Shown here: positions 7,601 through 40,700 of the stretch, one piece after another | Numbering within the stretch: position 1 is the first letter of the stretch | Layout: each line of letters starts with the position of its first letter | Assembly: GCA_019694805.1 (NCBI GenBank) | Contig: JAIBBG010000001.1 | Span: 310,001-374,000, forward strand | Length of the DNA stretch: 64,000 nt | Direction of reading: 5' to 3' | Source: Flavobacteriales bacterium | GTDB lineage: Bacteria; Bacteroidota; Bacteroidia; Flavobacteriales_D; Sanyastnellaceae | The notes under the pieces: generated by a model | Seen by the model: the letters and a program-made list of their open reading frames with translations, nothing else | The model's database searches: none | Told to the model about the DNA's origin: nothing | Translations under genes and position numbers: made by a program

Positions 7601-9137
7601 CAAAGGGAAGACCAAGGATGATCCAACTAAAAAAGATGGATTCGGAAAAGATGAAAAAGATAAAGATGAAAAAACAGAACCGATCAATCCACTGCACGCA
7701 GGTTTGAGGTTCCTGATGATGGTACGAAATGTTTCCGGTACATACTCCAGAACAGAGGGTATGTTGCTACCTGGTTATGCCAGAAAAACACAGATCATTG
7801 GTATGGATCCTAACTTCGAAGCACCGGGTTATCCATTCATCTTTGGACAACAAAACACAGATATCTGGGGCAATGATACCGGTGACAACTTTGCTGTGAA
7901 TGCCGCACAGAATAATTGGCTGGTGCATCTTCCTACATTGAACACCCAGTACAACGAAACTTATACTGAAACCTGGAATTACAAGATCAATCTCGAACCT
8001 ATTAAGAGTTTCAAAGTTGAGATTACTGCAAATAGAACAGAAGGACGAAATCTCACCAGTTTCTTTAGACAAGATGACCTGACTGATGCTTATGTCTTCG
8101 ACTCTCCAATGGAAACAGGAAACTTCAGCGCATCTGTTATCACATGGGCATCAGCATTCATGAAGGATGACAAAGACAACGGCTGGAATAATCAGGCATT
8201 CCTCGACTTTCTTGGAAACAGAACCACTTACTCCGAAGTGTTGAATACGGAAAACTACAATGAATCCGGTCCACAAACCAATGGCTATTACACCGGATGG
8301 GGACCAACGAGTCAGAATGTTGTTATTCCTGCATTCATTGCTGCATATACTGGTAGAGATCCGAAAGATGTTTCTACGAATCCATTCAAAACTAAGGTTC
8401 AGCCTAACTGGAGTGTGACATATGACGGTTTGTCAAAACTGCCTTCGATCAAAAAGTACTTCAAGCAGTTCAATGTCAAACATTCTTATAAATCAACCAT
8501 CACTACCAATTACGTGAGCAACCTCAATTTTGTGGGTAGTGAAGCAGGACTACCTACAACGTTGGATCAAAGCGACTTCCCGAATTATATCACACAAAGG
8601 CAAATCAACAATGTGGCCATTGCAGAGCAATTCACACCATTCAGTCTTGATATGACTTTGAAAACTAAAAAGTCGAAGAACCCTGAGAAGTCAAATGAAC
8701 CTCAAGTAAAATTTGAGTACAAGAAAGACAGAACAGTGGGTCTTGGACTTACCAACTATCAGATTACTGAAACGAAGAGCAATTCCATCACGATCGGACT
8801 GGGTTACAAAATCATGGAAGTGCCGAATCCGTTTGGCAGAAAAAAAGGAAGTAAACTTCCTATCAAGATCATGAAGAATACGAATATCAACTTCAGGGCT
8901 GACCTTACGGTGCGGGATAATGTGACTATTATTCGCAAAATGGTGGAGGAAACTTCACAACCTACGGCTGGTCAAAGATTGTATAGTCTGAAGACAAGCG
9001 CTGATATGGCGGTGAACGACAAGCTCACTATCCGTTTCTTCTACGATCATCAGTTAAATAGACCAAAAATTTCAACTTCATTCCCGACTTCAAATATTTC
9101 AACTGGTATTTCTCTCCGCTTTAGTCTGAACAATTAA
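1617..9137 (+). CDS. sprA: T9SS outer-membrane translocon protein SprA
   Basis: SprA (Sov in Porphyromonas) forms the very large outer-membrane beta-barrel through which T9SS cargo leaves the cell and is needed for gliding. This 2506-residue protein is slightly longer than the roughly 2400 residues usual for the family. It starts with a GTG (in-frame GTG 1626 and ATG 1635 are alternatives) and has a hydrophobic signal segment at residues ~7-28. The rest is almost all beta-strand-like repeats rich in aromatic and Asn residues, ending in TGISLRFSLNN, a typical barrel C-terminus. Two low-complexity inserts are seen: a Gly-rich linker around residues 1696-1727 and a Lys/Asp-rich tract around 1985-2022. 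These probably are loops and account for the extra length. It overlaps no neighbour and sits 8 bases after ruvA. Confidence 0.95.
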   Translation: MNNVNWMSFAARLCFFLVLSAVVWLGFANTHFNYIDPTKYSRPTEAGVEPDTTKPALIWPVEDNPNPSEDPGGINIPLPDNIEYHVEYNPVTGEYEVVQTIGDNIDYRPRTSMTLEEYMNSQQTENISKYWKEIQEEEDEANREYSKVIKIGSEGFESIFGSNEIEIRPQGSAELTFGVNSSKTNNPRIPERQRRITTFNFDQKIQLNVVGNIGTRMKLNVNYNTESTFDFENQMKLQYTGDEDQIIQGIELGNVSLPLTGSLIQGSSSLFGAKISTKWGHLRNTTVFSQQKGERKEITVQGGAQTQNFDITADSYEANRHYFLSSWFREEYDKALASLPVVNSGVNITRIEVWLVNLQSNTQDVRNVVAFTDLGEAPQYISGDLTDVGGVTQLDNTFYNNGNIAVTQRGNPSNLNNDIYIETTGTDPSNLNSAFSQQILSGSQAISALSSNTTDGYSNMVNGTHFERVNNMRKLTTSEFTYNNRLGFISLKQSLNNAEVLAVAYEYTLNGQTYQVGTISQDGFAAPQSLVLKLLKPSITRVKLADKYPAPLWDNMMKNVYSLGAFGIAPENFRLDVWYNNPSTGIYQNYIPREPLDGKILLQVLNLDRIDAQQMPYPDGFFDFIPNASTSGGLIDAQSGRVYFPVVEPFGSHLAKKIRDGLPGQDELADQIISQVAYQPLYDSTKTAAQILFPNLNRFRIRGQYQSASGSEISLNALNIPQGSVIVTAGGIKLQEGVDYTVDYNLGRVRILNDGIMSSGQPIKVSVESNSLFNLQFKTMIGSRFDYTFNDNLSVGATFLNLRERPVTQKVNIGDEPVNNTVVGADINFQKETPFLTSLVDRIPLIDTKAKSTVTFSAEAAKLFPGHSRAISKDGNSYLDDFEGSQSVIDLRSLNQWFMASTPKQQLNLFPEGNFEDSLIYNYNRARLSWYVIDPLFYRATSNLTPQNIIDDNWYSDHRMREVLEGEVFPNKQLPSGTPSNIATLDLTFDPSERGQYNFELPNGTNESAGLTAEGKLIDPASRWGGIQRSLTTTDFEASNVQFIQFWLMDPFNDDSENINGGELYFNLGNVSEDVLNDNNWSYENGYPSANSALDVDTATWGLYPSPNNFNVVNAFDNSTGSYAQQDIGLDGLTSAGEQSFFSAWLNQVQPFLTDSAYTKYLADPSNDDYRYFRSAQNDNENLNTVQRYKFYNNNEGNSNTETPDGYPITATTIPNSEDINQDITLNTIESYFQYKVSLKPGDLGPNNIGSNYITDSFETTKVVADGTERTIRWYQFKIPIKEFDERVGGISDFRSIRYMRMFLKGWKEPITLRFARLELIRGEWRKFAGKLSAPDEIEMGDPPPTIFNIAAVNIEENGDRDPVNYVVPPGIIREQDVASANLRSLNEQSLSYQICNLSDGDARAAYRNVNFDLRQYKRIRMFAHAEALGVEGELADNDLTVFIRLGSDFNDNYYEYEVPMKVTPWYSTDDEAIWPEANNFDILLKDLQNLKANRPPGTASTAITTVKSGNALISVRGNPNLANVTVLMIGVRNPAKDKNQFETNDDGRSECAIVWVNELRLSEFDEKGGWAAVARMNAQLADFATVAVAGNISTPGWGTLEQTVMERQQKTVMGFDANSTLQLGKFFPEKWGVTLPMYVGYSETVNTPRYSPLQPDLEMNDLPNVNKTLKKKSQDYVKRRSINFTNVKIAPKKDGGGGGGKDEKGAPPEAGVPAAPGGGGGGGNKKERFYNLQNFSVTYAYNEEYKRDINIDWRLHKTYLGAFDYNFQNKPKEIKPFDKIPVIKDSKYLRWLKEFNFYPSYKQLGFHTEMNRSYETSRIRNNTLELTGVYSDLILTTQVQKTWNWSRQYTFKYDLTKSLKFDFQASNVALVGEPRGVIDKENTDWYNAYKDTVWTNIQNGGTTTMYNHNASVSYKLPFDKFPLIDFISSDARYAATYRWDRAPFTQDSLGNTIQNSRNIQLNAQANLETLYNKVPLLKAINTGKKPKDDKKDKDKGKTKDDPTKKDGFGKDEKDKDEKTEPINPLHAGLRFLMMVRNVSGTYSRTEGMLLPGYARKTQIIGMDPNFEAPGYPFIFGQQNTDIWGNDTGDNFAVNAAQNNWLVHLPTLNTQYNETYTETWNYKINLEPIKSFKVEITANRTEGRNLTSFFRQDDLTDAYVFDSPMETGNFSASVITWASAFMKDDKDNGWNNQAFLDFLGNRTTYSEVLNTENYNESGPQTNGYYTGWGPTSQNVVIPAFIAAYTGRDPKDVSTNPFKTKVQPNWSVTYDGLSKLPSIKKYFKQFNVKHSYKSTITTNYVSNLNFVGSEAGLPTTLDQSDFPNYITQRQINNVAIAEQFTPFSLDMTLKTKKSKNPEKSNEPQVKFEYKKDRTVGLGLTNYQITETKSNSITIGLGYKIMEVPNPFGRKKGSKLPIKIMKNTNINFRADLTVRDNVTIIRKMVEETSQPTAGQRLYSLKTSADMAVNDKLTIRFFYDHQLNRPKISTSFPTSNISTGISLRFSLNN

Positions 9138-26636: not shown

Positions 26637-27926
26637 TCAAGATTTGCCGATTCTTTTCTTCAATATTTGAGTGAACTTCACGCCGAACTGGTAAACATCT
26701 TCATAGGAGTTGTACATCGGTACAGGTGCCATTCTGATCACATTGGGTTCACGCCAATCAACGATGACTCCCTGTCGAAACAACTCTGCCACCAGTGACT
26801 TGTCGCTTCCTTCAACCACAATAGACAATTGACAGCCTCTGCTATCGGCCTCTTTCGGTGTCAGTATCTGCATTTTCTGACCTGTTTCTTTCTGTACCTC
26901 TGCAAGTATGAATTCCAGATAGCCTGTAAGCTGTACTGATTTGTTGCGCAATTCATACATACCCACTTCAGCGAAAAGGACCAATGCAGCGCGATGCACA
27001 GCCATACTGAACACAGGAGCGTTGCTCATGCTCCAAGCTTCCGCAGTGATCATCGGGTCAAAATCAGGCTTCATCTCGAAGCGTGTTTTCTTGTTGTTTC
27101 CCCACCAACCAGCTAGTCTGAGCAATTCCTTGTTTCTGACATGGCTGTCGTGGATATACACACCACCAACACTTCCCGGACCACTATTCAAATATTTGTA
27201 AGTGCACCAGCATGCAAAATCGACTTCCCAATCATGAAGTCTTAGTGGAACATTACCTGCAGCATGCGCAAGGTCAAATCCCGCCAATGCACCAACCTGA
27301 TGTGCCTTTTCAGTAATGCTTTTCAAATCAAAAAACTGACCAGTGAAATAGTTAACCGCACCGAAACACACCAGTGCAAGTTCATCTCCCAGCTCTTCAA
27401 TTTTCGCAAGAATATCTTCGTTGCGCAATGTGACTTCTCCATTCCGTGGTTGCATTTCCACCAGAACATCATCCGGATTCAACCCATGCAATTTAGCATG
27501 TGATGCAAATGCATATTGATCAGAAGGAAATGGTTTCGTTTCAAATAATATCTTCCTGCGCTTACCCTGAGGTTGATAAAACGAAATCAAGAGTAGATTC
27601 AAATTCACTGTGAGTTGGTTCATCACCACCACTTCATGAATCAATGCACCGACAATACGTGCTGATGGCTCTGCAAGGTCTTCATGATAACTGTACCATG
27701 GATGTTTCGCCAAAAAATGCCCCTCTACTCCATATTTGGCCCAATCGTCACACTCCTGTATGAGTGCCTCACGAACCCCAACCGGCTGGAGACCAAGAGA
27801 GTTCCCCGTAAAATACAACATGTCCAGGTTTTCATGCTTCGGGAAAAGATATTGCGACCTGTAGGCTCTCAGAATGTCGCGTTCATCCTGAACAAGCGCA
27901 AAATCAAGGTTATTTTCATATTTCAT
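26637..27926 (-). CDS. kynU: Kynureninase
   Basis: Kynureninase is a pyridoxal-phosphate enzyme that cleaves kynurenine to anthranilate and alanine, or 3-hydroxykynurenine to 3-hydroxyanthranilate. The 429-residue length fits. Visible motifs are YFTGNSLGLQP (~38), MNQLTVNLNLLL (~102), the cofactor region FDLAHAAGNVPLRLHDWEVDFACWCTYKYLNSGPGSVGG with the Schiff-base Lys at 244, and WREPNVIRMAPVPMYNSYEDV near the C-terminus. No other tryptophan-degradation gene adjoins it. nadC at the end of the window would use quinolinate, which can come from this pathway, but it is 35 kb away. Transcription diverges from hemL; the gene ends 13 bases from gldH. Confidence 0.93.
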   Translation of the reverse strand: MKYENNLDFALVQDERDILRAYRSQYLFPKHENLDMLYFTGNSLGLQPVGVREALIQECDDWAKYGVEGHFLAKHPWYSYHEDLAEPSARIVGALIHEVVVMNQLTVNLNLLLISFYQPQGKRRKILFETKPFPSDQYAFASHAKLHGLNPDDVLVEMQPRNGEVTLRNEDILAKIEELGDELALVCFGAVNYFTGQFFDLKSITEKAHQVGALAGFDLAHAAGNVPLRLHDWEVDFACWCTYKYLNSGPGSVGGVYIHDSHVRNKELLRLAGWWGNNKKTRFEMKPDFDPMITAEAWSMSNAPVFSMAVHRAALVLFAEVGMYELRNKSVQLTGYLEFILAEVQKETGQKMQILTPKEADSRGCQLSIVVEGSDKSLVAELFRQGVIVDWREPNVIRMAPVPMYNSYEDVYQFGVKFTQILKKRIGKS

Positions 27927-28023
27927 GACAATCGTGCAATTTATAGAGAACTATCTTGCGCTCCGTCGGCAAGATGAATTCTGAAATCGCCGGCAAGGAA
28001 AGAAATAATTTTTCATCAAAGCC

Positions 28024-29319
28024 ATGAATACGATTTTATCGAATAAACTTTTTGAAAAAGCCCGTACATTTTTTCCCGGCGGGGTGAATTCCCCTGTAAG
28101 GGCATTCAAATCTGTCGGCGGAAATCCATTATTTATGGCGAAGGGTGAAGGTGCACTTCTCACCGATGAAGATGGCAATACTTTTATTGACTACTGCTGT
28201 TCCTGGGGGCCACTCATTCTCGGTCACGCCAATCACCATGTGGTAAAGGCTATTGCCGATACCGCTGCCAATGGAACAAGCTTTGGCGCTCCAACAAAAC
28301 TTGAAAACCAACTTGCAGAACTCATCCTGTCCAATCATAGCCGTATTGAAAAAATGCGTTTCGTGAGTAGCGGAACGGAAGCTGTCATGAGTGCCATCAG
28401 ACTCGCCAGAGGTTTTACAGGAAAAGACAAGGTGATCAAGTTCGAAGGTTGCTATCATGGACATGTAGATAGCTTGCTGGTGAAAGCCGGAAGCGGTCTC
28501 GCTACATTGGGCACTTCTTCATCAGCTGGAATACCTGAAGCTTATGCCAAAGAAACCATCGTACTTCCTCTCCACGACAAAGCTGCATTAGACGAAGCTC
28601 TGTCGACCTATAAAAACCAAATCGCAGTGATCATCATTGAGCCTATTCCGGCTAACAATGGCTTGCTGCTGCAGGAAGGTGAATTCCTGAGATACCTGCG
28701 CGAAGTATGCACGAAAGAAGGTATTCTGCTGATGTTCGATGAAGTCATCAGTGGTTTCAGGGTAGGATTTGAAGGTGCTGCCGGATATTATGACATCACA
28801 CCCGATCTTTTTTCATTCGGTAAAATAATTGGCGGTGGTATGCCGGTTGGTGCCTATGCCGCCAGAGCTGAAATCATGAATCATGTTGCTCCTGAAGGAC
28901 CTGTTTATCAAGCGGGCACACTTTCAGGAAACCCTGTTGCTATGGCCGCCGGATTTGCTCAACTGACCGAATGTCTTCGTCCCGGATTTTATGAAGAGCT
29001 CAAGGAAAAGACTGATTATTTGGTGAACAATGTGATGACGCGATTGCAATCGAAGAATCTTCCTTTCCACATGTTCAGTGTTGGAAGTATTTTTTGGGTT
29101 TCATTCAGTGATAAAAAATCGATTCACCGTAGTGATGAAATTGATGCCGTGGGAATGTCGAAATTCTCACCCTTTCACAAACATCTTCTTGAACGCGGCA
29201 TTTATTTAGGGCCAAGTGGATATGAAGTTGGATTTGTATCAGCAGCTCATACGACACAACATCTGGATGCCACGATAGACGCAATGGTAAGCGGTGTTTG
29301 CGAAATATATGGGGCGTAA
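28024..29319 (+). CDS. hemL: Glutamate-1-semialdehyde 2,1-aminomutase
   Basis: HemL converts glutamate-1-semialdehyde to 5-aminolevulinate in the C5 route to haem. The 431-residue protein shows all expected features: FFPGGVNSPVRAFKSVGGNPLFMAKGEGA, the SSGTEAVMSAIRLARG substrate loop (~117), YHGHVDSLLVKAGSG, LLMFDEVISGFRVG (~237) and the PLP Lys at 267 in FGKIIGGGMPVGAYA. ATG 28024 gives the canonical start. The gene ends flush against the convergent hypothetical gene. Haem supply is relevant to the cytochromes nearby, but no direct link is shown. Confidence 0.96.
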   Translation: MNTILSNKLFEKARTFFPGGVNSPVRAFKSVGGNPLFMAKGEGALLTDEDGNTFIDYCCSWGPLILGHANHHVVKAIADTAANGTSFGAPTKLENQLAELILSNHSRIEKMRFVSSGTEAVMSAIRLARGFTGKDKVIKFEGCYHGHVDSLLVKAGSGLATLGTSSSAGIPEAYAKETIVLPLHDKAALDEALSTYKNQIAVIIIEPIPANNGLLLQEGEFLRYLREVCTKEGILLMFDEVISGFRVGFEGAAGYYDITPDLFSFGKIIGGGMPVGAYAARAEIMNHVAPEGPVYQAGTLSGNPVAMAAGFAQLTECLRPGFYEELKEKTDYLVNNVMTRLQSKNLPFHMFSVGSIFWVSFSDKKSIHRSDEIDAVGMSKFSPFHKHLLERGIYLGPSGYEVGFVSAAHTTQHLDATIDAMVSGVCEIYGA

Positions 29320-29949
29320 TTACTTTTTCGTAAGTACCCACAATAGTATTCCCGTTGCAGAACCTGCAAAAGATCCTTCCATAGCCCTGAACAACTTTCT
29401 GGACCTTGCCGGTGGCTCATATCCATCGGCATAGAAATCGTTGTATTTGTAATCAGGATTGCTCATGGTGCTCTCTTTGATCTTGATCTTCGGTAAAAGC
29501 TGAACAAGGGTGTAGACCAGCGGAGGTCCCAATGCAGTTATCAATCCATCCTGACCAATAAAACCGGTAACACCGCAGATTGCAAAACCAACAAGGAATG
29601 TTGGCCAGGCGGTGAAATTATTTCTCGCATCGCGTTCTCCTGCCAAATAAAAATGCATTTCATCTACCGTGTAGATATTGCCCAGAGGTTCATCCTGAGC
29701 ATAAAGAATCACCTCTTCCTCCCCGCTTTTCGTCACACTGAATACTTCATTCTTGTGTATCTCTCGCACTTTCACCCTACCATTTTTTTTCACCAATTCA
29801 AAAACGAATACAGTGCCACTATCTCCCACAATACGACAATGAAGTTCTTGACCATTCATCAGTAAAAGCGTATCCTGTGCCTGAGCGGACTCACAGGCGC
29901 CAATCAAACACATCAACCCGATAAATGAATGAATGATAATTTTACTCAT
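29320..29949 (-). CDS. Hypothetical exported protein with a C-terminal membrane region
   Basis: ATG 29949 gives MSKIIIHSFIGLMCLIGACESAQAQD, a signal peptide, and a 209-residue protein; the ORF extends 24 codons further upstream but that part does not look like a signal. The mature N-terminal half (LLLMNGQELHCRIVGDSG ... KVREIHKNEVFSVTKSGEE) resembles the small beta domains in Bacteroidota exported proteins that start with MNGQ. Two hydrophobic stretches follow near residues 115-150, and the end carries YADGYEPPARSRKLFRAMEGSFAGSATGILLWVL, a possible membrane-inserting tail. I do not recognise a function. It converges with hemL without a gap and precedes comF by 85 bases on the same strand. Confidence 0.65.
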   Translation of the reverse strand: MSKIIIHSFIGLMCLIGACESAQAQDTLLLMNGQELHCRIVGDSGTVFVFELVKKNGRVKVREIHKNEVFSVTKSGEEEVILYAQDEPLGNIYTVDEMHFYLAGERDARNNFTAWPTFLVGFAICGVTGFIGQDGLITALGPPLVYTLVQLLPKIKIKESTMSNPDYKYNDFYADGYEPPARSRKLFRAMEGSFAGSATGILLWVLTKK

Positions 29950-30034
29950 ATGAAAATGGTCTTCGGCAAAGATGAGATATTCAAACGACTTTTCGTCAAA
30001 TGAAAATGAAGATGACAACAATCTGCTGTCAGGA

Positions 30035-30730
30035 TTATACAGGCATCGCCAGCGAAGCCACCGATAATTTCAAACCTTTGATTTGATTCAATACAAGTGA
30101 ACAGGCCTCAATCGTGCTGCCGGTGGTGATCACATCGTCAATCAACAAGATTCTTTTTCCTTCCAACATGTCCGGTTGACTCAAGCCAAATATGGTCTCA
30201 ACATTTTTCCATCGGTCATATCTCGACTTTCTGGTTTGACTTTGTGTAAAAACAATGCGTCGCAAGTTGTTTGTCATTAACTCACCACCTAATGTCAAGG
30301 CCATACCTTCTCCAATACAATCACATTGGTTATATCCCCGCATATAAAGTTTCTTAGGATGAAGTGGTACCGGTATGATGTAGTCATATTGGTTCATCCT
30401 CTTCGATGCACCGAGTTCAGTGCCGAACAACTTTCCCAAACGAATTCCCACGTTTTTGTTTTCCTTGTACTTCAATTCATGGATCAAACGATGAACAGTT
30501 CCTTCTCTTGGCATTTTCAAAAATGCTGTTGCAGCTTCTATATCCGTTCTACCCCAAAAAAGCCTTTCTAATTTATTACCACTTTCATCGTGCATCGAAG
30601 TTCTTGGCAGTCGCGACTGACAGTACAAACAAATACTTTCTTCGCCTTTGACTAAAGAACGATGACAACCGGCACAGTATGCCGGAAAGAAAAGTGAAAA
30701 AAAATCAGATGCATAAATGGCCGCCTTCAT
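30035..30730 (-). CDS. comF: ComF-family phosphoribosyltransferase-like protein
   Basis: ComF/GntX proteins have a phosphoribosyltransferase fold and in competent bacteria help DNA uptake or processing of incoming strands. The 231-residue protein has an N-terminal zinc-finger-like group (CAGCHRSLVKGEESICLYC), a central helical part (LIHELKYKENKNVGIRLGKLFG) and the PRPP-binding signature RILLIDDVITTGSTIEAC (~185-202). ATG 30730 gives MKAAIYASDFFSLFFP, matching the usual family start; ATG 30739 adds three residues. No other competence gene lies nearby. It is on the same strand as the mbnP operon but 66 or more bases after ykgJ. Confidence 0.85.
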   Translation of the reverse strand: MKAAIYASDFFSLFFPAYCAGCHRSLVKGEESICLYCQSRLPRTSMHDESGNKLERLFWGRTDIEAATAFLKMPREGTVHRLIHELKYKENKNVGIRLGKLFGTELGASKRMNQYDYIIPVPLHPKKLYMRGYNQCDCIGEGMALTLGGELMTNNLRRIVFTQSQTRKSRYDRWKNVETIFGLSQPDMLEGKRILLIDDVITTGSTIEACSLVLNQIKGLKLSVASLAMPV

Positions 30731-30804
30731 GAAGGTCAAAATAAATCCTCATCAAGCGATGCATAAAATATGTGTTATGTGGAATAAAATTTTCGAATTA
30801 TGAA

Positions 30805-31299
30805 TCACTTCGTTTTCTCTTTGATCTTCTCTACCATATCTGCGACAGCTGGGCATACCATGGTGTTGCGAAATGTCAATTCAAGAATCTGCGACATGTT
30901 TTTGCGATCGGTATGCGGATATTCACGACACGCTTTTGGCCTTACATCATAAATACTACAATAATTGTCATCACCCAAAAAAGGACAAGGAGCTACATTC
31001 AACACCCAATCCTGATCTTCATCGATATGCAAATATTTTTCGGTGAACATGGAAGGGCGAATTCCAAGATGCTTGGAAATTCTATCAATATCAACATCGC
31101 GAAAAATAGGTGAGGTCGTCTTGCAACAATTTGCACAAGTAAGACAATCTACCCGAGCAAAAACCTCATCATGCAAATCATGAAAAAGCGGATCGAGGTC
31201 CTTTCTGCGCGCAAGTCCCAGAATGAATTTTTTATTTTCCTTTCTGTATTGTTTTGCCTTCGCAAGCAAAGTGGCAAAAGGAGCAGGTAATGGCGACAT
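30805..31299 (-). CDS. YkgJ-type cysteine-cluster protein
   Basis: This 164-residue cytoplasmic protein belongs to the YkgJ/CxxCxxCC family, thought to bind zinc or iron through clustered cysteines. Visible are CLTCANCCKTTSP (~58-70) and CPFLGDDNYCSIYDVRPKACREYP (~103-126). No signal peptide is present. Its ATG overlaps the stop of the upstream di-haem peroxidase gene by one base, so it is the fourth gene of a coupled operon with mbnP and two di-haem proteins. A metal-related or Cys-oxidation role next to a copper-site system would be reasonable, but this is inference; YkgJ genes also occur in unrelated contexts. Confidence 0.8.
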   Translation of the reverse strand: MSPLPAPFATLLAKAKQYRKENKKFILGLARRKDLDPLFHDLHDEVFARVDCLTCANCCKTTSPIFRDVDIDRISKHLGIRPSMFTEKYLHIDEDQDWVLNVAPCPFLGDDNYCSIYDVRPKACREYPHTDRKNMSQILELTFRNTMVCPAVADMVEKIKEKTK

Positions 31300-32405
31300 C
31301 AGTTGAATGGATCGCTGAATGCTGGGTTGTGAATAAAACTGGTATCTGTGAGTGTTTTCAAAAACTCAATCAACGCGAGTTCATCGAGCTCATCAAGATA
31401 AAGTCCGCCACCGGCAGCTTCCATAAATGGATCTATGGTTGTCGAAACATTTCCTCCCGAATTGTAATGTAAGAATACACCGTGAAGATCTGGAAAACGG
31501 CCATCATGCATATATGGAGCGGTCAATTCAATATTTCGTAATGATGGAGTTTTGAAACGACCACTATCCAATGGATTACCTGTGATGGCGGCCAAGCCGG
31601 GATCTTGATCAAAATGAGAATCGAGGCCATTGTTATGCATCAAGTAATCGCCCATTTGCATACCAGCATGTCCGTGACAATGAAAACAATCTGCTCCACC
31701 CCATGGTTGACCAGTATTTGCATTGATTCCACCTTCCGTGATGAATAAATTGAATCCGGCATCCTCAAGAGGTGTAAAGGTGTATTCACCAATTCTTTCA
31801 CGGTCAAACTTGGAATCTGCGCTGATAAGTGTTCTAAGAAAAGAAGCCATGGCTTTAGCAGCACGTTCTTGGGTGACTTCCGGTGTACCAAATGCATCTT
31901 CAAACAAAGGTGGATACAAAGGATCGTTTTGCAATTCGACAATGGCATTCTCCCACGTTTCGTTCATTTCAATGGGATTTTCTACAGGCATTTGTACTTG
32001 ATCCTCTAAAGTCTCAGCGCGTCCATCCCAGAAATAGTTGTATGCCCATCCGAGATTGACAAGCGCCATAGCCTGCCTATTGCCTACCTCACCTGTAATC
32101 CCTACACTGAATTGACTGGGATCAGAAAAACCATGTTCAGGTAAATGACATGTACCACAACTTTGGGTGTTGTTGCCACTGAGTTTTTTTTCCCAGAAAA
32201 GATATCTTCCTAAGGTAATGCCCTCGACAGTTAAGGGATTGTCGGCAGGAATATCCATAGGTGGAAAAAACGGTGGAATCACGAGGTCATAAGGCGTGGT
32301 AGTAAACGGAATGTCCGGCGTTTCATCCTCGCGATCGTTACGACAAGCCGAAAGCATGATCACAGCCATCAAAACGACAATGCTATTTCTCTTCCATGTT
32401 ATCAT
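31299..32405 (-). CDS. Di-haem MauG/cytochrome-c-peroxidase-like lipoprotein (second of two)
   Basis: A 368-residue protein with a signal peptide ending in a lipobox-like LSAC (Cys 21) and two c-type haem motifs, CGTCH (83-87) and CFHCH (240-244). The family core RNIELTAPYMHDGRFPDLHGVFLHYNSGG is present (~295-325). Members reduce peroxide (CcpA) or use hypervalent haems to oxidise side chains of partner proteins (MauG, MbnH). Placement directly after another di-haem gene and an MbnP-like gene favours the MbnH type. Its ATG overlaps the stop of the upstream di-haem gene by 4 bases. It differs from the first copy in length and in the spacing between haems (157 versus 146 residues), so the two are not a recent duplication. 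Confidence 0.85.
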   Translation of the reverse strand: MITWKRNSIVVLMAVIMLSACRNDREDETPDIPFTTTPYDLVIPPFFPPMDIPADNPLTVEGITLGRYLFWEKKLSGNNTQSCGTCHLPEHGFSDPSQFSVGITGEVGNRQAMALVNLGWAYNYFWDGRAETLEDQVQMPVENPIEMNETWENAIVELQNDPLYPPLFEDAFGTPEVTQERAAKAMASFLRTLISADSKFDRERIGEYTFTPLEDAGFNLFITEGGINANTGQPWGGADCFHCHGHAGMQMGDYLMHNNGLDSHFDQDPGLAAITGNPLDSGRFKTPSLRNIELTAPYMHDGRFPDLHGVFLHYNSGGNVSTTIDPFMEAAGGGLYLDELDELALIEFLKTLTDTSFIHNPAFSDPFN

Positions 32406-33421
32406 TTCACCAAAGGTAATAAATCAGCATTTTGAACAAAGTTCCAATCTGTGAGTGTTTTGAGAAAAGCTACCAACTGCCTCTGCTCTTCATCCGTGAG
32501 ATTCATTGGCGCAATGCGCTCGTCTTTATTGACATGATTTCTGCCACCTTCATTAAAAAAGGCAACCACTTCTTCAAGTGTATTCATTCTACCATCGTGC
32601 ATATAAGGACCGGTAAGCTCAATGTTTCTCAATGTGGGTGTTTTGAATTTCCCAATGTCGCCTGCCAAATGGGTTGCTCTTTCCTTTCCGTGATCCGTGT
32701 ACTCTTCTTCTAAACCGATGTTGTAATATTCGAAGTCAGTAAAAAACGGCATACTGTGACATTCGCCACATTTCGTTCTGTCTGAATAAAACAATCTCAT
32801 TCCTTCGAATTCATCGTGAGTCAATTCATCCTTATACCCAGTTCTGTAACGGTCAAAACGTGAATCGCCAGAAATGAATGTTCGCTGAAAAGCTGCAAGT
32901 GACCTGGTGACAACATATGGATCGATAGAATCGCGACCGTAAGCGGCTTTCGCAATGGCTCGAAGCTCTTCATCTTCGTTGAGTTCATCTACATAAGCCA
33001 TCATATTGAACCCCATTTCAAGTGAATCATGCAATGGGGCTAAAGCCTGCGCTTCCAATGTTGGCACACCGCCTTCCATCATCAATCGTGGCATCCAGGC
33101 GATATTGGCAAGTGTTGGTGCGTTACGTCTTCCCTCATGACCCATTCGACCTGTACTGACCATTTTGCCATCTGTGAACGCAGAACTCAACACGTGACAT
33201 GATCCACAATTCATATCATGGTTGGTCGAAAGACGATTATCATAGAATAAAATCCTACCCAAACCAATGCGAAGTTTGGTAGGCTCATTGCCTTCAGGAA
33301 AACGAATTTCAGGAAATTTGTAAGGGATGCGCAGTCTTACGGGTTCATCCTGATAACTCGCGGATTTGTTGCAGGCGATCAGAGAAGCTGCAACCAGAAC
33401 CAATAAGTATTTCCGATTCAA
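32402..33421 (-). CDS. Di-haem MauG/cytochrome-c-peroxidase-like lipoprotein (first of two)
   Basis: A 339-residue lipoprotein (lipobox LIAC, Cys 17) with haem motifs CGSCH (72-76) and CGECH (218-222). The sequence TPTLRNIELTGPYMHDGRMNTLEEVVAFFNEGG near 270-300 is the conserved C-terminal core of di-haem peroxidases. It begins 2 bases after the mbnP-like stop and overlaps the next di-haem gene by 4 bases, so it is certainly part of the same transcript. The likely job, by analogy with MbnH, is to oxidise a tryptophan on the MbnP partner; a plain cytochrome c peroxidase role cannot be excluded from sequence. Confidence 0.87.
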   Translation of the reverse strand: MNRKYLLVLVAASLIACNKSASYQDEPVRLRIPYKFPEIRFPEGNEPTKLRIGLGRILFYDNRLSTNHDMNCGSCHVLSSAFTDGKMVSTGRMGHEGRRNAPTLANIAWMPRLMMEGGVPTLEAQALAPLHDSLEMGFNMMAYVDELNEDEELRAIAKAAYGRDSIDPYVVTRSLAAFQRTFISGDSRFDRYRTGYKDELTHDEFEGMRLFYSDRTKCGECHSMPFFTDFEYYNIGLEEEYTDHGKERATHLAGDIGKFKTPTLRNIELTGPYMHDGRMNTLEEVVAFFNEGGRNHVNKDERIAPMNLTDEEQRQLVAFLKTLTDWNFVQNADLLPLVK

Positions 33422-33423
33422 AA

Positions 33424-34197
33424 CTATTCTACCGTTATGGCGTAGGTATAATTCTCCATGAACTGATTTGCGAGATCAAGATTATTGCTGGTATGTGTGA
33501 TGGCATCTGTAGCTAAATCGATATCATTCGCAGCGCCTGTGGCAAAAATTTGATCGACGTGGATCAATACATTGATTTCTCTGGTGTCTCCAGCAGCAAG
33601 CTGAATATCCATTAATGGAGAAGAATAACGGGTAAACATAGGATCATCACCAATATGTATGGCGACAGGTTCCAGCAGCTCCGCGCCATCGGTTCCAGTG
33701 GTGTCAGCTTTTCCTTCAAACTTCAAAAAGATATATCCCGTGTTCCATGTCCAGAACATACCCTGCGAGCCAGCTACACTCAAAGGATGGTCATTGGCAT
33801 ACTGTGCAGGGTCTTGATCTTTGTTGTAATCTTCAGGAATACCAATATCAAAGTTGAATCGATTGTAGCTTCCCGGTGGCACGTCAAATTCAAAATCTAT
33901 GTTGTTGTAAAAATCTGCCAGGTAAAAATCCTTCATGATAACATCTTCACCAGCCGTATTCCGCAATCTGATTCCGGAGTAGTACTGCATGAATTTATCC
34001 GAACGAATTCTGTTCCCAAAATCATCATGATAAACTTGTTGCATAACGAATGGTTGATCACCCCACATTGGTTTGAAGTGAACCAACACTTTCGCTGTGG
34101 TTGGCGTAGGTTGATTTTCTTCTTCTTTGTTCTTATCCTTACAAGAGAATAAAACAAATACAGCAGAAAAGAGAACGATAAACTGAATATTACGCAT
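33424..34197 (-). CDS. MbnP-like copper-binding lipoprotein
   Basis: A 257-residue lipoprotein (signal ending VLFSC, Cys 19) of the MbnP family. MbnP/CorA of methanotrophs binds copper through a site that includes a kynurenine made from tryptophan by the di-haem enzyme MbnH. Here the conserved segment GMFWTWNTGYIFLKFEG (residues 146-162) supplies Trp 149 and Trp 151. DFYLADF (~90) and HVDQIF (~220) are other conserved parts. Charged, Pro-rich residues 21-35 form a linker after the lipid anchor. It heads the operon mbnP, two di-haem genes and ykgJ, with a perfect promoter and a palindrome before its ATG. Copper acquisition or handling is the favoured role; which Trp is modified was not determined. 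Confidence 0.82.
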   Translation of the reverse strand: MRNIQFIVLFSAVFVLFSCKDKNKEEENQPTPTTAKVLVHFKPMWGDQPFVMQQVYHDDFGNRIRSDKFMQYYSGIRLRNTAGEDVIMKDFYLADFYNNIDFEFDVPPGSYNRFNFDIGIPEDYNKDQDPAQYANDHPLSVAGSQGMFWTWNTGYIFLKFEGKADTTGTDGAELLEPVAIHIGDDPMFTRYSSPLMDIQLAAGDTREINVLIHVDQIFATGAANDIDLATDAITHTSNNLDLANQFMENYTYAITVE

Positions 34198-34200
34198 GGT

Positions 34201-34213
34201 TTCAACGGTTGAA
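34201..34213. promoter_or_regulatory. Palindrome in the mbnP leader (possible operator)
   Basis: TTCAAC-G-GTTGAA is a perfect 6-bp-arm palindrome located between the -7 element and the mbnP ATG at 34197, near the expected transcription start. That position suits a repressor, for example one sensing metal; no regulator gene is nearby. Confidence 0.4.
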
Positions 34214-34219
34214 CTGATA

Positions 34220-34251
34220 CAAATTTAGACGTTATACAGGAAATACCCAAA
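34220..34251 (-). promoter_or_regulatory. mbnP operon promoter TTTG-N20-TAAATTTG
   Basis: On the minus strand TTTG (34251-34248) and TAAATTTG (34227-34220) are separated by 20 bases, an exact match to the Bacteroidota consensus. The start codon is 22 bases downstream. Confidence 0.8.
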
Positions 34252-34579
34252 ACTACCCTCAAGGGAATTCTCGTGGGATATACCTTCATCCATCGCTAAG
34301 ACGGATTACTTTCGTCCCTTATTGCTTGAACTCAGATCTGCAGACGAAAACTATTGCACCTCTGAAAGCCAAAAAAGACGCGCGCTCCCCGTCTATGTTG
34401 GGATAAGCTTGCAAGATATTTATTTGAAAGCCGATCATTCATACGGTGAAAATAAAATCGAAGAAAGCTTGCCCCATGTGGTTACGACATGGGGTGCACG
34501 TCATTGCTGACTTCCAGAGTTTCATCACGATCCCGACTGCAGGATTTGGGTTCAATCATGTGATAATAATCACCCATTC
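34252..34579. other. Intergenic region upstream of the AddA-like gene
   Basis: The region between the mbnP promoter and the AddA-like gene contains three items. A -7-like TACTTTCG lies at 34307-34314. A perfect 8-bp hairpin CCCCATGT / ACATGGGG lies at 34472-34494. One arm of a repeat (34521-34555) is also found at 61362-61396. A TTG-started 62-codon ORF (34322-34510) was judged unlikely to be real. Confidence 0.5.
34521..34555. repeat. Dispersed repeat arm, copy 1
   Basis: A 35-base stretch starting TTCATCACGATCC and ending GATTTGGGTTCAA. It matches the segment starting at 61364 at 30 of 35 positions. It ends 24 bases before the AddA-like start codon. The opposite arm seen in the other copies is not visible here. 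Confidence 0.5.
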
Positions 34580-37500
34580 ATGACCACTAAAAACTTCAAA
34601 GTCATCAGGGCCAGTGCCGGTACAGGGAAAACCTATACCCTGGTGAAGGAATACCTGCAATTGGCTTTAAAAAATGGCACAAATTGGTATTATAAGCACA
34701 TATTGGCTATCACTTTTACCAACGCGGCAGCCGCTGAAATGAAAGAAAGAATCCTCAAAAACCTGAGGCTCTTTTCCCAGAATGACCATCAATGTGCATT
34801 GCTCACAGAAGTAGCCAAAAATCTTGACCTGACAGAAGTCGAAGTAAGAGACCGGGCAAGGCGCACTTTTCACCACATGCTGCACAATTATGGTCAACTG
34901 AGCATTCTTACCATCGACAGTTTTACTTCCAAACTCATTAGAAGTTTTTCCAAAGATCTTCATCTGAAATACGATTTCAATATTGAAATTGATTCGACAA
35001 CTTTTCTTGAAAAAGTTGTTGATGAATGCATCAGTCTGATCGGTGAAGATGAAGCACTCACTAACTGGCTCGTAGACTACGCCAAAAGAAACGCAGAAGA
35101 TGAGGCAGATTGGAATTTTAAGGAAAAAGTACTCAAGACATCCAAGGAAATGATTCGTGAATCTGCATGGCCATCCCTGGATAAATTGAGTGCATTCAGT
35201 GATGAAGATTTTCGAAGGGTAGCGAATGAAGTCAACAAAGCGATTTCACAATTTGAGCACAAAGCAATTTCAATCGCCCAAAAAGGACTTGATGTGATAG
35301 CGGAGGCACAACTTTCATTGTTTGATTTTGCATACGGCAAATCAGGCGGGTTGATGTATTTGAAAAAAATAGGCGTAGATCAGAATTATGTCACTGCTTC
35401 ACACAGAACCCTTGAATTGCTCGTTGATGATGACAAGTGGTACAACCAAAAAACAGAGCGGGATTTGGTGGCAAGGATCAAACAAATTCAACCACCGGTT
35501 CGAGAATGTCTTCAAGAGCTCATCAACTTTCTGAATGAAGAGGCTATTTTGAAATATCGTATTCGAAAGGCCATCGCTAAAAATATATACTCGATTGGAC
35601 TCATCAATAAACTCAGCAGTATCGCTGCGGAAATCCGCATCGATGAAAACATCATCCTGATTGCGGATTTTCATCGCATGGTGAATGATATTGTGCGAAG
35701 TAATCAAGCTCCATTTATCTTCGAAAGGATTGGTGTTCGATATCGCCATATCATGATTGATGAGTTTCAAGACACATCTATTTTGCAGTGGGAAAATGCG
35801 TTGCCATTGATCGATAATGCCCTTGCAGAAAATCATTTGAACCTTATCGTTGGAGATGCCAAACAAGCTATCTACCGGTGGCGCGGAGGTGATGCAAGAC
35901 AATTTGTAGAACTTCCAGTATTGCGCTCCGAAAGTTCCCAACAAATCACTTCACTTCCTTATCATTTTCATCGTGAAAATCTCAGCACCAGTTATCGCAG
36001 TGCAGAAGCCATAGTCGAATTCAATAATATGCTTTACAAGCGACTTACTGAGTCGCAACCACATCTGCATGCCGTTTATGATGGCTTTGAACAAACCACG
36101 AGTGCGTCCAGAAAAGGGATGGTCAGTGTTCACTATGCTCAAGGCAGTAAAAGAGCAGAATATCGGCCAGTAACGATGGAGATCATTTTAAAGTGCATCG
36201 CAGAATCCTTGGCAGATGGTTATCCACCTGGAGATATTGCCGTCCTTACCAGAATAGGAAAAGGTGAAGCAGATGAAGTAGCCTCTGCATTGCTCAACGC
36301 AGGATATCAGGTGGTAACCAAAGAGAGTTTACTCGCTGATCACTCACCTGCAGTCAATGTCGTCATTTCCTATTTGAACATGATGTTCAACCTGTCAGAC
36401 AAATTTGCTCCGACGTTGCTTCTTCAGTCATTGTGCAAACTTCATCCTCAAATTTCACTCACAGAATTTCATGAAAAATATGCCGTTGGATCCGGTAAAA
36501 AACTGAGTTTCGATCATTGGCGATTCCTGAATGATTATTTCGGTGATATGGGAAAAATCACACTCACCACACCGCCATTAGAAGCAGTCATTTCTGTGAT
36601 TCGCATGTTTAAGATAGAACCCGACAGCGGACTCGAGCTTCTTCTGGAAAAAGTGAGGACACATTGCGTTGAAGATCATCGCACCATCACTGAATTTTTA
36701 ACGTGGTGGAAAGATCAAAGCGAAAAGACGTATACCTCATCGGTTGGATCTTCAGGTGCCATACAAATCATGACTGTACATAAATCCAAAGGACTTGAAT
36801 TTCCTGTTGTCATCTACGCTCGTATGACAAGAAGAAAAACGCCTGATGAAATTTGGATCAATCTCGATGAGAAGGAATATGGATTGCCTGCAACGTTGAT
36901 TTCAAGTTCGATGAAAAGTGCCGAAGATTCTGAGCAAACTGAATTCAACAATGAATCAGAACAACAAGCAATTGATGAAATGAATGTTTGTTATGTCGCA
37001 ACAACCAGACCGAAGGACAGACTATACATGATTCTTGAAGGTGGAAGTCAAAGCGCATTGACAAAACAAATCCAATCGACCATTCAAAAGATTTCACCAA
37101 ATTTTCCTGAAACACCATATGTGTTTGGTGTAAAAGAAAAAAACAACAGAGAACCTGAAGACGACAATACGATGCTGATACCATTTGAAAATGCCCCTGC
37201 AAGAACATGGCAAATCAGATCGAAAACCGGACCTCAAAACAAAGCTGCTCTTTACGGCGATCTTCTTCATCGTTGTTTGCAACTCATCATTACTGCAAGA
37301 GATATTCCTGCAGCCATTGCAAACGTGATTAAGAATTCCATGCATCAACATCTTGAATCGCAAATCAAAACAGACATCGAAAAGATCATTCTCCACCCAA
37401 TGGCCTCAACATGGTTTCAGGGAATTGGAAGATTATTGCAAGAAAGAGAGTTGGTGACATCATCAGGAAAAATTCTGCGCCCAGATCGGGTTCTCATTTT

Positions 37501-37663
37501 TGAAGGTTATGTTGATGTGATTGACTACAAAACAGGCCAACCATCTGAACAACATTTTGCTCAACTCAAATCATACATGCATGAAATATCCCAAATTGAA
37601 AAAATACCAGCCAGAGGATATGTTGTGTATACCAGTTCTGGTGAAATTGTCAAAGTGGAATAG
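34580..37663 (+). CDS. UvrD-family helicase-nuclease, AddA-like
   Basis: A 1027-residue superfamily 1A helicase. Walker A ASAGTGKTYT is at residues 11-20, ITFTNAAAAEMKERI (~46) is motif Ia, MIDEFQDTS (~390) is the Walker B box, then GDAKQAIYRWRGGD (~425), VHKSKGLEFPVVIY (~732) and CYVATTRPKDRLYMI (~800). The C-terminus contains DRVLIFEGYVDVIDYKTGQ (~970-987), a PD-(D/E)XK nuclease core as in RecB and AddA. Such enzymes resect double-strand breaks for recombination and degrade foreign linear DNA. In Bacteroidota this gene normally adjoins addB, but here neither side has an addB-like gene. An AddB encoded elsewhere is the simplest explanation. It ends 93 bases before a T9SS cargo gene. Confidence 0.88.
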   Translation: MTTKNFKVIRASAGTGKTYTLVKEYLQLALKNGTNWYYKHILAITFTNAAAAEMKERILKNLRLFSQNDHQCALLTEVAKNLDLTEVEVRDRARRTFHHMLHNYGQLSILTIDSFTSKLIRSFSKDLHLKYDFNIEIDSTTFLEKVVDECISLIGEDEALTNWLVDYAKRNAEDEADWNFKEKVLKTSKEMIRESAWPSLDKLSAFSDEDFRRVANEVNKAISQFEHKAISIAQKGLDVIAEAQLSLFDFAYGKSGGLMYLKKIGVDQNYVTASHRTLELLVDDDKWYNQKTERDLVARIKQIQPPVRECLQELINFLNEEAILKYRIRKAIAKNIYSIGLINKLSSIAAEIRIDENIILIADFHRMVNDIVRSNQAPFIFERIGVRYRHIMIDEFQDTSILQWENALPLIDNALAENHLNLIVGDAKQAIYRWRGGDARQFVELPVLRSESSQQITSLPYHFHRENLSTSYRSAEAIVEFNNMLYKRLTESQPHLHAVYDGFEQTTSASRKGMVSVHYAQGSKRAEYRPVTMEIILKCIAESLADGYPPGDIAVLTRIGKGEADEVASALLNAGYQVVTKESLLADHSPAVNVVISYLNMMFNLSDKFAPTLLLQSLCKLHPQISLTEFHEKYAVGSGKKLSFDHWRFLNDYFGDMGKITLTTPPLEAVISVIRMFKIEPDSGLELLLEKVRTHCVEDHRTITEFLTWWKDQSEKTYTSSVGSSGAIQIMTVHKSKGLEFPVVIYARMTRRKTPDEIWINLDEKEYGLPATLISSSMKSAEDSEQTEFNNESEQQAIDEMNVCYVATTRPKDRLYMILEGGSQSALTKQIQSTIQKISPNFPETPYVFGVKEKNNREPEDDNTMLIPFENAPARTWQIRSKTGPQNKAALYGDLLHRCLQLIITARDIPAAIANVIKNSMHQHLESQIKTDIEKIILHPMASTWFQGIGRLLQERELVTSSGKILRPDRVLIFEGYVDVIDYKTGQPSEQHFAQLKSYMHEISQIEKIPARGYVVYTSSGEIVKVE

Positions 37664-37756
37664 CATCGCAGACTTGAAATTATTGTAAGAACCTACAAGG
37701 AAATTAGAAGTCTTACTTCTCAATAATTCTTTTATTTGTGGTACTACTTGTGAAAA

Positions 37757-40700
37757 GTGAGTCATCGCTTTTCATTTTATAGACCTAAATCATCGCCTGT
37801 GAAAAGTAAACTACCACTCTTGCTCGCACTCGTCATTGTAAGTTTAAGCAACAACGTAACAGCACAGGATGCCGCATTTCTTCAAAGCGGTAAACTTGAA
37901 CACATGGCTGGCGTTACATTGCCCACAACACGACCGAAAGCAGCATCGTGCGCTCCCGCCACGGCATTGCGCGATCTGGAATGGAACAACATTGATGCGC
38001 TGATAGAAACGGGGGGTTCACTATGGCAAGATCGAGCCAATGGACGATCACATTACTATGCACCAAAATCCGGTGTCAACTCCGTTCTCTTCGCAGGATC
38101 ACTCTGGCTTGGAGGTGTTTCTCCAGACCAACAGCTGAAACTCGCAGCACTCCAATATCGCTATTCAGGTAGTGATTATTGGCCAGGGCCACTCACAACA
38201 GATGGGACAGCAGAGACGACTTCGTCATCTTGTTTATCATGGGACAAATTCAGTGTATCACTTAGAACCGACGCAGCAATGCATCGCGCCTATTTTGAAT
38301 GTCAGAATGATCCTAACTGTGATTTATCAGATTTACTTCCAAATGGCTACGTGATTCCTTCTTATTTCATGGATTATCCTGCACATGGCAACCTGGCCGC
38401 CGGACAGGATTTTTATATCGCACCATTCTATGACTTCGACGACAATGGAATCTACGACCCAACCAAAGGAGATTATCCATGGTACGACATCGATAAATCT
38501 GTCAATTGTCGTAAAAGAAAAAGTGATGACCCCGTGCCTTTGTATGGAGATCAAACACTCTTTTGGGTATTCAACGATAAAGGAAATATTCATACCGAAT
38601 CCGGAGGACAAGCCATCGGCATGGAAATACGTGCACAAGCTTTCGCCTTTAGTACGAATGACGAAGTCAACAACATGACATTTTACAATTATGTCCTCAT
38701 CAACCAAGGCACACAAAAACTTCAGGACACCTATTTCGGAACTTGGATTGATTGCGATATCGGTGGGCACGTAGATGATTATGTTGGCTGTGATGTTCAA
38801 CGCGGACTCGGATATGGATACAACGGTAACTCATACGATGGCCCATCAGCTTTATCTTTTGGCTATGGAGAAAATCCTCCCGCTGTAGGGGTCGATTTTT
38901 TCGAAGGTCCATATCAGGATAAAGACAGCATGGACAATCCACTGACGGATGACATCAATATTGCATTTGAACAAAAAGGTATTCCATACAAAGGAATTGG
39001 TATTGGATATGGCGATGGCATTGTGGACAATGAAAGATTTGGTATGAGAAAGTTTCTTTACCATATCTCAGGAACCGGAACAAATGGACCACCAACCCAA
39101 GCATCACACTATTACAACTATCTCCGTGGGTATTGGAAAAACAACCAACGAATGACCTATGGCGGAAATGCACTCACCGTCGGCACAGGAACCGATCCCA
39201 GTATACCCGCGGATTATATGTTTCCGGGAGATACCGATCCGTTGAGATTCGGAACCTATGGCATTGATGTGGCTCCTTGGACTGAAGTGAGTAGTGATAA
39301 CCTTCCGGGCGACAGAAGATTTATGCAAAGTGCAGGACCATTTACACTTGAACCTGGTGATTACAACAATATCACTGTAGGTGTGGTATATGCACGCGCA
39401 ACCTCCGGTGATCCTTTTGCATCCGTAGAATTATTGAGGCAAGCTGATGATAAAGCACAGGCTTTATTTGACAACTGTTTCGAACTCATCTCTGGACCCG
39501 ATGCGCCTGATGTAGAAATATGTGAGCTCGAAAACGAACTTATCCTGATGTGGACGAATGAAAATTCATTCAATTCGAATTATCATGAATTGTATAGCAC
39601 GATTGATCCCACCATTCCCGAAGTTGACGCCGATGGCAATACCTATTCCATAGAGGAAAGGAGTTACCATTTTCAGGGTTACATGATATACCAACTTGCG
39701 GATGAAAACGTATCCATTACCGAATTGGCAGATGTCAACCTTGCAAGATTGATTGGTCAATGTGATGTGGAAGATGAAGTGGGTACAATCATCAATTACG
39801 AGCGTGATGATGATACCGGCATCATTGCGGGTGCACTAAAAGTGGATGGTGCCAATGAAGGCATCTACCACTCACTTCGTATTACAGAAGATGCTTTCGC
39901 TTTAGGAGACAAAACCCTTATCAACCATAAAACTTACTACTTTATGGTCATTGCATATGGATATAACAACTACCGAGATTATGACATCTCTACCAATTCC
40001 GGACAAGACGAAGCCTTCCTTGCATCCAGAAAAGGAAGTTTTGGAACCATCAGACCGGTGAGTGGTATTCCTCACAAAGTACTACCGCAAGCAGATGGAA
40101 CCTATACGCATTCATCCTATGGTCAGGAATTAGCACTTAAACAATATGAAGGCATTGGCAATGGTGATCATTGGATTGCAATGGATGAGACCAGCGAACT
40201 AGAAATTGTTGCTCAAAACACCATTGAAGATATTCAATACAACGCCGGGGCAAGTCCAGTTAAAGTAAAAGTGGTTGATCCTCTCAGGGTTCCTGCAGCC
40301 GATTTCGAATTAAAACTGGCGCCGGATAATCAAGGATTAGTTAGCGATTCTGCCTTCTGGCAGCTTCATAATTTGACAACTGATGAATACTACAATTCAT
40401 ATCATGCCATTCTCACGCCATATGAGGAATTGATGATTGATTGGGGTTTATCGGTATATTGGAAACAGGTGATGTCGAAAGATAGTACTGATGAACATTT
40501 TACTGATTTCATCGGAGCAGCAATCATCTATGAAGATCCATCGCTCGCATGGCTCACAGGTTTTCCTGATGATGATTCATACGGTGATTACAACTGGATT
40601 CGCAGTGGAAGCAATTATAAAGATCCTGCGACGGGTGATCCTATTGAAGTGAGCTACAACGATTATACCGACGGACACCTTCTTGACAGCGCAGCAACTC

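Follow-up and report, generated by a model that had tools for sequence, protein, structure and literature searches.

The mbnP-like gene of a Flavobacteriales genome is preceded by a promoter-like sequence and a perfect 13-nt palindrome, and this arrangement raises the question of whether the palindrome is an operator for a metal- or redox-responsive repressor or an accidental feature of an ordinary promoter. We analyzed a stretch of 64,000 nt around it (contig JAIBBG010000001.1 of assembly GCA_019694805.1), referred to here as the window, in which the region in question lies at 34201-34251. Our analysis suggests, with good confidence, that this region is an ordinary promoter of the primary sigma factor (sigma-ABfr type) for mbnP-mbnH1-mbnH2, and that the palindrome belongs to its leader by accident and not as a conserved operator. 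A sigma-ABfr-type promoter, P1, would drive the three genes on the minus strand; transcription would most likely start at about 34215, with a short leader about 18 nt long in which the palindrome would be incidental; and metal or redox control of the operon, if there is any, would not act through a conserved symmetric site at P1. We infer the start site, the activity of the promoter, and the absence of a repressor, whereas the sequence itself, the gene order, the conservation of the -7 box, the lack of the palindrome in the genus relatives, and the lack of a repeated site ahead of metal genes are shown directly. P1 looks like a textbook promoter for its phylum, and the lead that drew attention to it is most likely an ordinary one. 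The features discussed are listed in Table 1.

Table 1. Features of the mbnP locus, with positions in the window
Feature	Positions	Strand	Remarks
P1 -33 element, TTTG	34248..34251	-	Consensus of PMC6847099; N20 to the -7 box
P1 -7 element, TAAATTTG	34220..34227	-	TAnnTTTG 22-24 nt before the ATG in 8/8 genus genomes
Predicted P1 +1	34215	-	From -7 box placement in Flavobacterium psychrophilum; 18-nt 5' UTR
13-nt palindrome, TTCAACCGTTGAA	34201..34213	-	Predicted +3 to +15; probably incidental
mbnP-like gene (PF20243)	33424..34197	-	Pfam 104.8 bits (cut-off 27); WxW stretch FWTWN
mbnH1, first MbnH/MauG-like di-heme gene	32402..33421	-	PF03150 165.4 bits; two CxxCH
P2, TTTG-N18-TACCTTTG	32411..32440	-	Inside the mbnH1 3' end, 5 nt before the mbnH2 ATG
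mbnH2, second MbnH/MauG-like di-heme gene	31299..32405	-	PF03150 176.4 bits; two CxxCH
CxxCxxCC putative zinc- or iron-chelating protein	30805..31299	-	PF03692 53.3 bits; one base in common with mbnH2
RecB/AddA-like helicase-nuclease	34580-37663		Divergent neighbor

Genes of the operon and their neighborhood

Four closely packed genes follow one another on the minus strand, namely mbnP, mbnH1, mbnH2, and the gene for the CxxCxxCC protein. The mbnP product has the PF20243 domain and the WxW stretch of the MbnP family, and scores 43.7 bits against the NCBI equivalog TIGR04052, under the cut-off of 140. On these features, it appears to be a divergent member of the MbnP family, and since it falls below the equivalog cut-off, copper binding can be suggested for it through its family only. 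The two di-heme proteins have TIGR04039 as their best NCBIfam match, at 250.2 bits for mbnH1 and 251.4 bits for mbnH2, under the cut-off of 362.85. As read from translations, mbnP is followed by two di-heme-like frames in all eight genomes of the genus; the reading took in 13 loci besides that of the window, each with two such frames after mbnP (L002-L012, L017, and L022; the mbnP frame of L011 had been dropped from the list by an overlap rule). A helicase-like frame is the divergent neighbor in 11 of these 13, with another frame in L009 and the end of the contig in L004.

The gap between mbnP and the RecB/AddA-like gene (34198-34579) is 382 nt long here; in the six other members of the genus for which it was measured, it is 107-110 nt. 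A search for inverted repeats in 34150-34620, which did not list the 13-nt palindrome itself, gave three pairs of 11-nt arms, none of them at the promoter. One of the inverted repeats with 11-nt arms, at 34472-34494 in the intergenic gap, has arms that are 91% complementary and 1 nt apart, and neither strand has a run of T immediately following it. Further along, at 26637-27926, there is a kynureninase-like gene (KYNU_C and aminotransferase class V), separated by about 2.9 kb from the CxxCxxCC gene and by 3.4 kb from mbnH2; it is probably unrelated to protein-bound kynurenine.

The probable promoter ahead of mbnP

Read on the minus strand, the region consists of TTTG, 20 nt, TAAATTTG, 6 nt, the palindrome, ACC, and the mbnP ATG (34197-34195). 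The combination TTTG-N20-TAAATTTG (34251-34220) matches both elements of the consensus given for the primary sigma factor of Bacteroidota, TTTG and TAnnTTTG (PMC6847099). A preliminary description of this DNA had called it an exact promoter, with the right letters and coordinates though no strand. Its proposal that a promoter stands ahead of the mbnP operon is supported for one of the primary-sigma type and strengthened by conservation, as TAnnTTTG is found 22, 23, or 24 nt ahead of the mbnP ATG in all eight genus members (this genome and seven others). The exact -33 TTTG at N20 occurs in this genome alone among the eight, and the best -33 element in the relatives is GTTG-N18, in three of the other seven. 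Compared with the sigma-ABfr promoter of Bacteroidota, P1 shares the exact -33 and -7 elements, a short predicted leader, and a -7 box that is kept in the genus; we see no notable difference, the exact -33 element with N20 being limited to this one genome of the eight.

The full pattern TTTG-N18..21-TAnnTTTG occurs four times in the window where 1.82 are expected, and nine of 100 shuffles reach four, a count that is by itself unremarkable. What makes P1 more than a chance match is placement: each of the four matches has a predicted gene start no more than 100 nt downstream of it (4 of 38 genes), whereas the full pattern is present in 0.275% of 100-mers drawn at random from the window (4000 draws). 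The -7 box alone is present in 9 of the 38 upstream stretches, as against 2.3% of random stretches.

In Flavobacterium psychrophilum, the -7 box is reported at -12 to -5 of mapped starts (PMC9723704). The same spacing here would place +1 at 34215, so that the leader would measure 18 nt and the palindrome would span +3 to +15. The preliminary description had placed the palindrome between promoter and start codon, near the expected transcription start. The median leader reported for that species is 24 nt, and 5.5% of its messages are leaderless (PMC9723704). Bacteria of this phylum are described as being without Shine-Dalgarno sequences, with an A at -3 aiding initiation (PMC6847099), and position -3 of mbnP is an A. 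In three other loci of the family (L009, L014, and L022), the -7 box stands just 4-5 nt ahead of the chosen mbnP ATG, which predicts a leaderless or nearly leaderless mbnP mRNA in other genera of the family.

It is very unlikely, in our view, that the operon is driven mainly from somewhere other than P1, by an upstream start or by another sigma factor, with the palindrome lying in an untranslated leader of no regulatory role. An upstream start could make use of a second exact TAnnTTTG box, TAGTTTTG, 50 nt ahead of the mbnP ATG, but the best -33 element for this box has two mismatches, and the box whose position is conserved in all eight genomes is that of P1. Another sigma factor is suggested by the second mbnP-like gene of this genome, which sits behind a gene for an ECF sigma factor.

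The palindrome in the window and in the leader

On the minus strand, the palindrome reads TTCAAC-C-GTTGAA (34213-34201) and ends 3 nt before the mbnP ATG. Its inverted 6+1+6 symmetry at predicted +3 to +15 is of the kind looked for in the operator of a dimeric repressor, where it would overlap the promoter or the start. The window contains the exact 13-mer a single time, with 0.02 expected for that word, and perfect 6+1+6 palindromes as a class occur 12 times. Within the last 60 nt before the start, six of the 38 genes have a palindrome with 6-bp arms and a gap of 0-5, where the rate in random stretches (8.5%) would give about three, and two have a 6+1+6 palindrome. The palindrome does exist, yet palindromes of its class are not beyond chance. 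A literature search for its spelling or that of its core gave no match in the papers covered, and searches for copper repressors or CsoR in the phylum yielded nothing used here.

A role of the palindrome at the RNA level, as a 5' hairpin affecting mRNA stability or access to the start codon, seems to us extremely improbable. The palindrome does lie in the predicted leader, and leader structure is reported to tune initiation in Flavobacterium johnsoniae (PMC6847099), but the 13-mer folds at 0 kcal/mol, the arms pair at only -0.7 kcal/mol in a 31-nt leader piece, and in a 51-nt piece (-2.8 kcal/mol) the arms are not paired to each other; none of the three folds is better than those of shuffles. 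A hairpin was therefore dropped from consideration, its folding being negligible. Rfam models gave no match over 28000-40000.

The palindrome in orthologs and other lineages

The absence of the palindrome from relatives is what makes it seem accidental. Of 60 genomes searched, 56 have an mbnP match, this genome included. Over the 60 nt that precede the mbnP ATG, none of the seven other genus members has a palindrome with 6-bp arms, and in the alignment, the place of the left arm is taken in these by an ATTGAA-like sequence. The nearest ortholog among the genomes searched is just 54% identical, and these included no strain of the same species. At this distance, a fast-evolving operator could vanish unseen, which leaves some room for one restricted to this lineage.

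The 11-nt core of the palindrome, TCAACNGTTGA, is found in four of 63 distinct mbnP upstream stretches, namely that of the window and three near-identical copies from another genus (g4). The shuffle mean for these stretches is 0.027, and the maximum reached in 300 shuffles is one. The 63 stretches come from 75 loci after collapsing duplicates and dropping L049, in which no WxW was found. A further 58 family upstream stretches, which may overlap with the 63, contain no exact core, and one of them has a one-mismatch match inside its coding part; 60 had been fetched, and L156 and L176 were dropped as no start was found. Paralogs are included in both sets, and their start codons were chosen by rule, which is rough for some loci.

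In g4, a genus of seven of which six members were fetched, TATCAACTGTTGATA is found at the mbnP promoter of four members, which are near-identical to one another. The right arm, running into the -7 box, is present in all six, and the two divergent members are without the left arm. The core site sits before the -7 box in g4, and not in the leader as in the window. This match is the result that speaks most against an incidental palindrome. It would amount to one independent recurrence (two lineages in all), found post hoc, and we judged it to be weak support for an operator, given that g4 as a whole does not preserve the left arm.

Search for a regulon in the genome

The exact 13-mer has two copies in the 3.85-Mb genome, the other one inside a 336-aa reading frame. 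The core TCAACNGTTGA occurs nine times, as against three for a reversed control, with eight of the nine sites inside reading frames, and over the eight genus genomes, the counts are 27 and 16. With up to one mismatch to the 13-mer, the genome has 34 sites, and the reversed control has eight (a neighboring site at the edge of L137 was left out of the 34). Of these, 28 are inside frames of at least 60 aa and six are outside, the mbnP site among them; both here and for the core, placement rests on open frames and not on annotation. Three of the other five sites outside frames have a gene start within 200 nt, and these genes encode a bifunctional nuclease, a carbohydrate-binding protein, and a protein of no family. 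One of the 28 sites in frames falls in a frame of 64 aa, possibly not a real gene, and a MatE transporter gene begins 7 nt beyond it. Leaving the mbnP site aside, no gene found behind these near matches is a metal gene by family, and at up to one mismatch we see no shared operator of metal genes. The preliminary description had thought the palindrome an apt place for a repressor and proposed a search for the same sequence ahead of orthologous operons and other metal genes. This idea did not hold up, as the palindrome is absent from all seven genus relatives and was not found again before metal genes of the genome; lack of conservation in orthologs is one of the two observations that the description had named as speaking against its idea.

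An operator specific to this lineage, at which a dimeric repressor encoded elsewhere would block polymerase at +3 to +15 until the metal or redox state changes, is unlikely. It would account for a perfect symmetry placed just downstream of the predicted start and for the related core that adjoins the mbnP -7 box in four of six g4 genomes, and it has a precedent in the comparable CorA/CorB pair of a methanotroph, which is copper-repressible (PMC3912023). The excess of palindromic words over the reversed control also speaks against an incidental palindrome, though most of the sites behind it lie in reading frames. However, the palindrome is absent from all seven other genus members, the g4 site is placed differently and has lost its left arm in two of the six genomes, the 58 further stretches are without the exact core, and there is no sign of a site shared by metal genes. 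Most likely the palindrome arose by accident, though there is a small chance of its being a young operator. Being without good support as a metal-responsive operator, it should not serve to search for a copper regulon.

Regulators and comparison with known systems

The preliminary description saw no regulator gene in the window, and as far as our Pfam scan reaches, this is correct, with no transcription-regulator family among 36 of the 38 predicted proteins of at least 130 aa. The scan covered all proteins of this size except the 2506-aa frame at 1617-9137 and the frame at 28024-29319, and four of the scanned proteins have no family match. A ClpX-like protein was rejected as a candidate regulator, its match to a sigma-54 activator ATPase domain being read as a shared AAA fold.

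The CorA/CorB system of Methylomicrobium album is a copper-repressed pair, made up of a kynurenine-containing copper protein and a co-transcribed di-heme partner (PMC3912023). The operon studied here likewise has a gene for a putative copper protein directly followed by a MauG-like di-heme gene, but it belongs to another phylum and has two di-heme genes; the passages of PMC3912023 on corA-corB name no operator with which the palindrome could be compared. A survey of methanobactin operons reports no marked similarity of MbnP to CorA or MopE, and no data at that time that tied close MbnP homologs to copper (PMC3621798). In some of the mbnP-mbnH operons of that survey, an ECF sigma factor and its membrane partner (MbnI/MbnR) are encoded as well (PMC3621798). 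Our locus shares with these operons a PF20243 protein and an MbnH-like partner, whereas an MbnI/MbnR-like gene was not seen among the 36 window proteins scanned.

A trait resembling the methanobactin operons is found on another contig of this genome (C106 of G000), where an ECF sigma factor gene stands beside the second mbnP-like gene. This gene (L122, 1662-2333) is located behind the genes for the sigma factor and a Metal_resist-like protein (L122, 121-2333 for the group), the latter matching PF13801 at 28.2 bits, just under the cut-off of 29.2. The palindrome core was not found on this contig. Six further genus loci with an mbnP-like gene were read by eye: in one (L217, from G003), the order is again ECF-like frame, short frame, mbnP-like gene; another (L220, from G006) has an ECF-like frame and the mbnP-like gene; and the remaining four (L215, L216, L218, and L219) have other neighbors. 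The ECF sigma factor and Metal_resist-like genes by this other mbnP-like gene offer a better place to seek metal-responsive control.

An internal promoter-like site in mbnH1

Another of the four full promoter matches in the window, P2, lies inside the 3' end of mbnH1. It was picked by pattern search of one genome alone, before its conservation was examined. TTTG-N18-TACCTTTG is present in all eight genus genomes, 5 nt before the mbnH2 ATG in seven of them and 8 nt before it in the other. When mbnH1 from these genomes is aligned by codon, 151 columns are invariant in amino acid (Met and Trp aside), and just 11 of these use a single codon. The only such frozen column among 10 invariant Pro columns is the CCT of the P2 box, and the only one among 24 invariant Leu columns is the TTG of the same box; of nine invariant Phe columns, three are frozen, and these include the TTT of the P2 -33 element. 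The frozen codons, together with conservation across the genus, point to selection on the nucleotides. Across 29 mbnH2 upstream stretches, TACCTTTG is found in 14 (the eight genus members, L014, and five of g4) and is absent from 15, loci of g8, g17, and g21 among them. In g4, the box stands 5 or 11 nt ahead of the mbnH2 start codon, with no TTTG element at the right distance.

P2 is likely to be an internal promoter, conserved in the genus, whose transcript would have little or no leader. It is better conserved than P1, and the more interesting find. The two sites could be combined in a further reading, in which P1 and P2 are both conserved primary-sigma promoters, mbnH2 can be made apart from mbnP and mbnH1, and the palindrome, with its distant g4 match, is a recently acquired operator that shuts P1 alone. 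If so, the ratio of the di-heme enzymes to their substrate would change. We consider this combination distinctly unlikely, and return to P1 as an ordinary promoter with an incidental palindrome. P2 in its own right gives rise to a testable claim, that the second di-heme enzyme is separately expressed.
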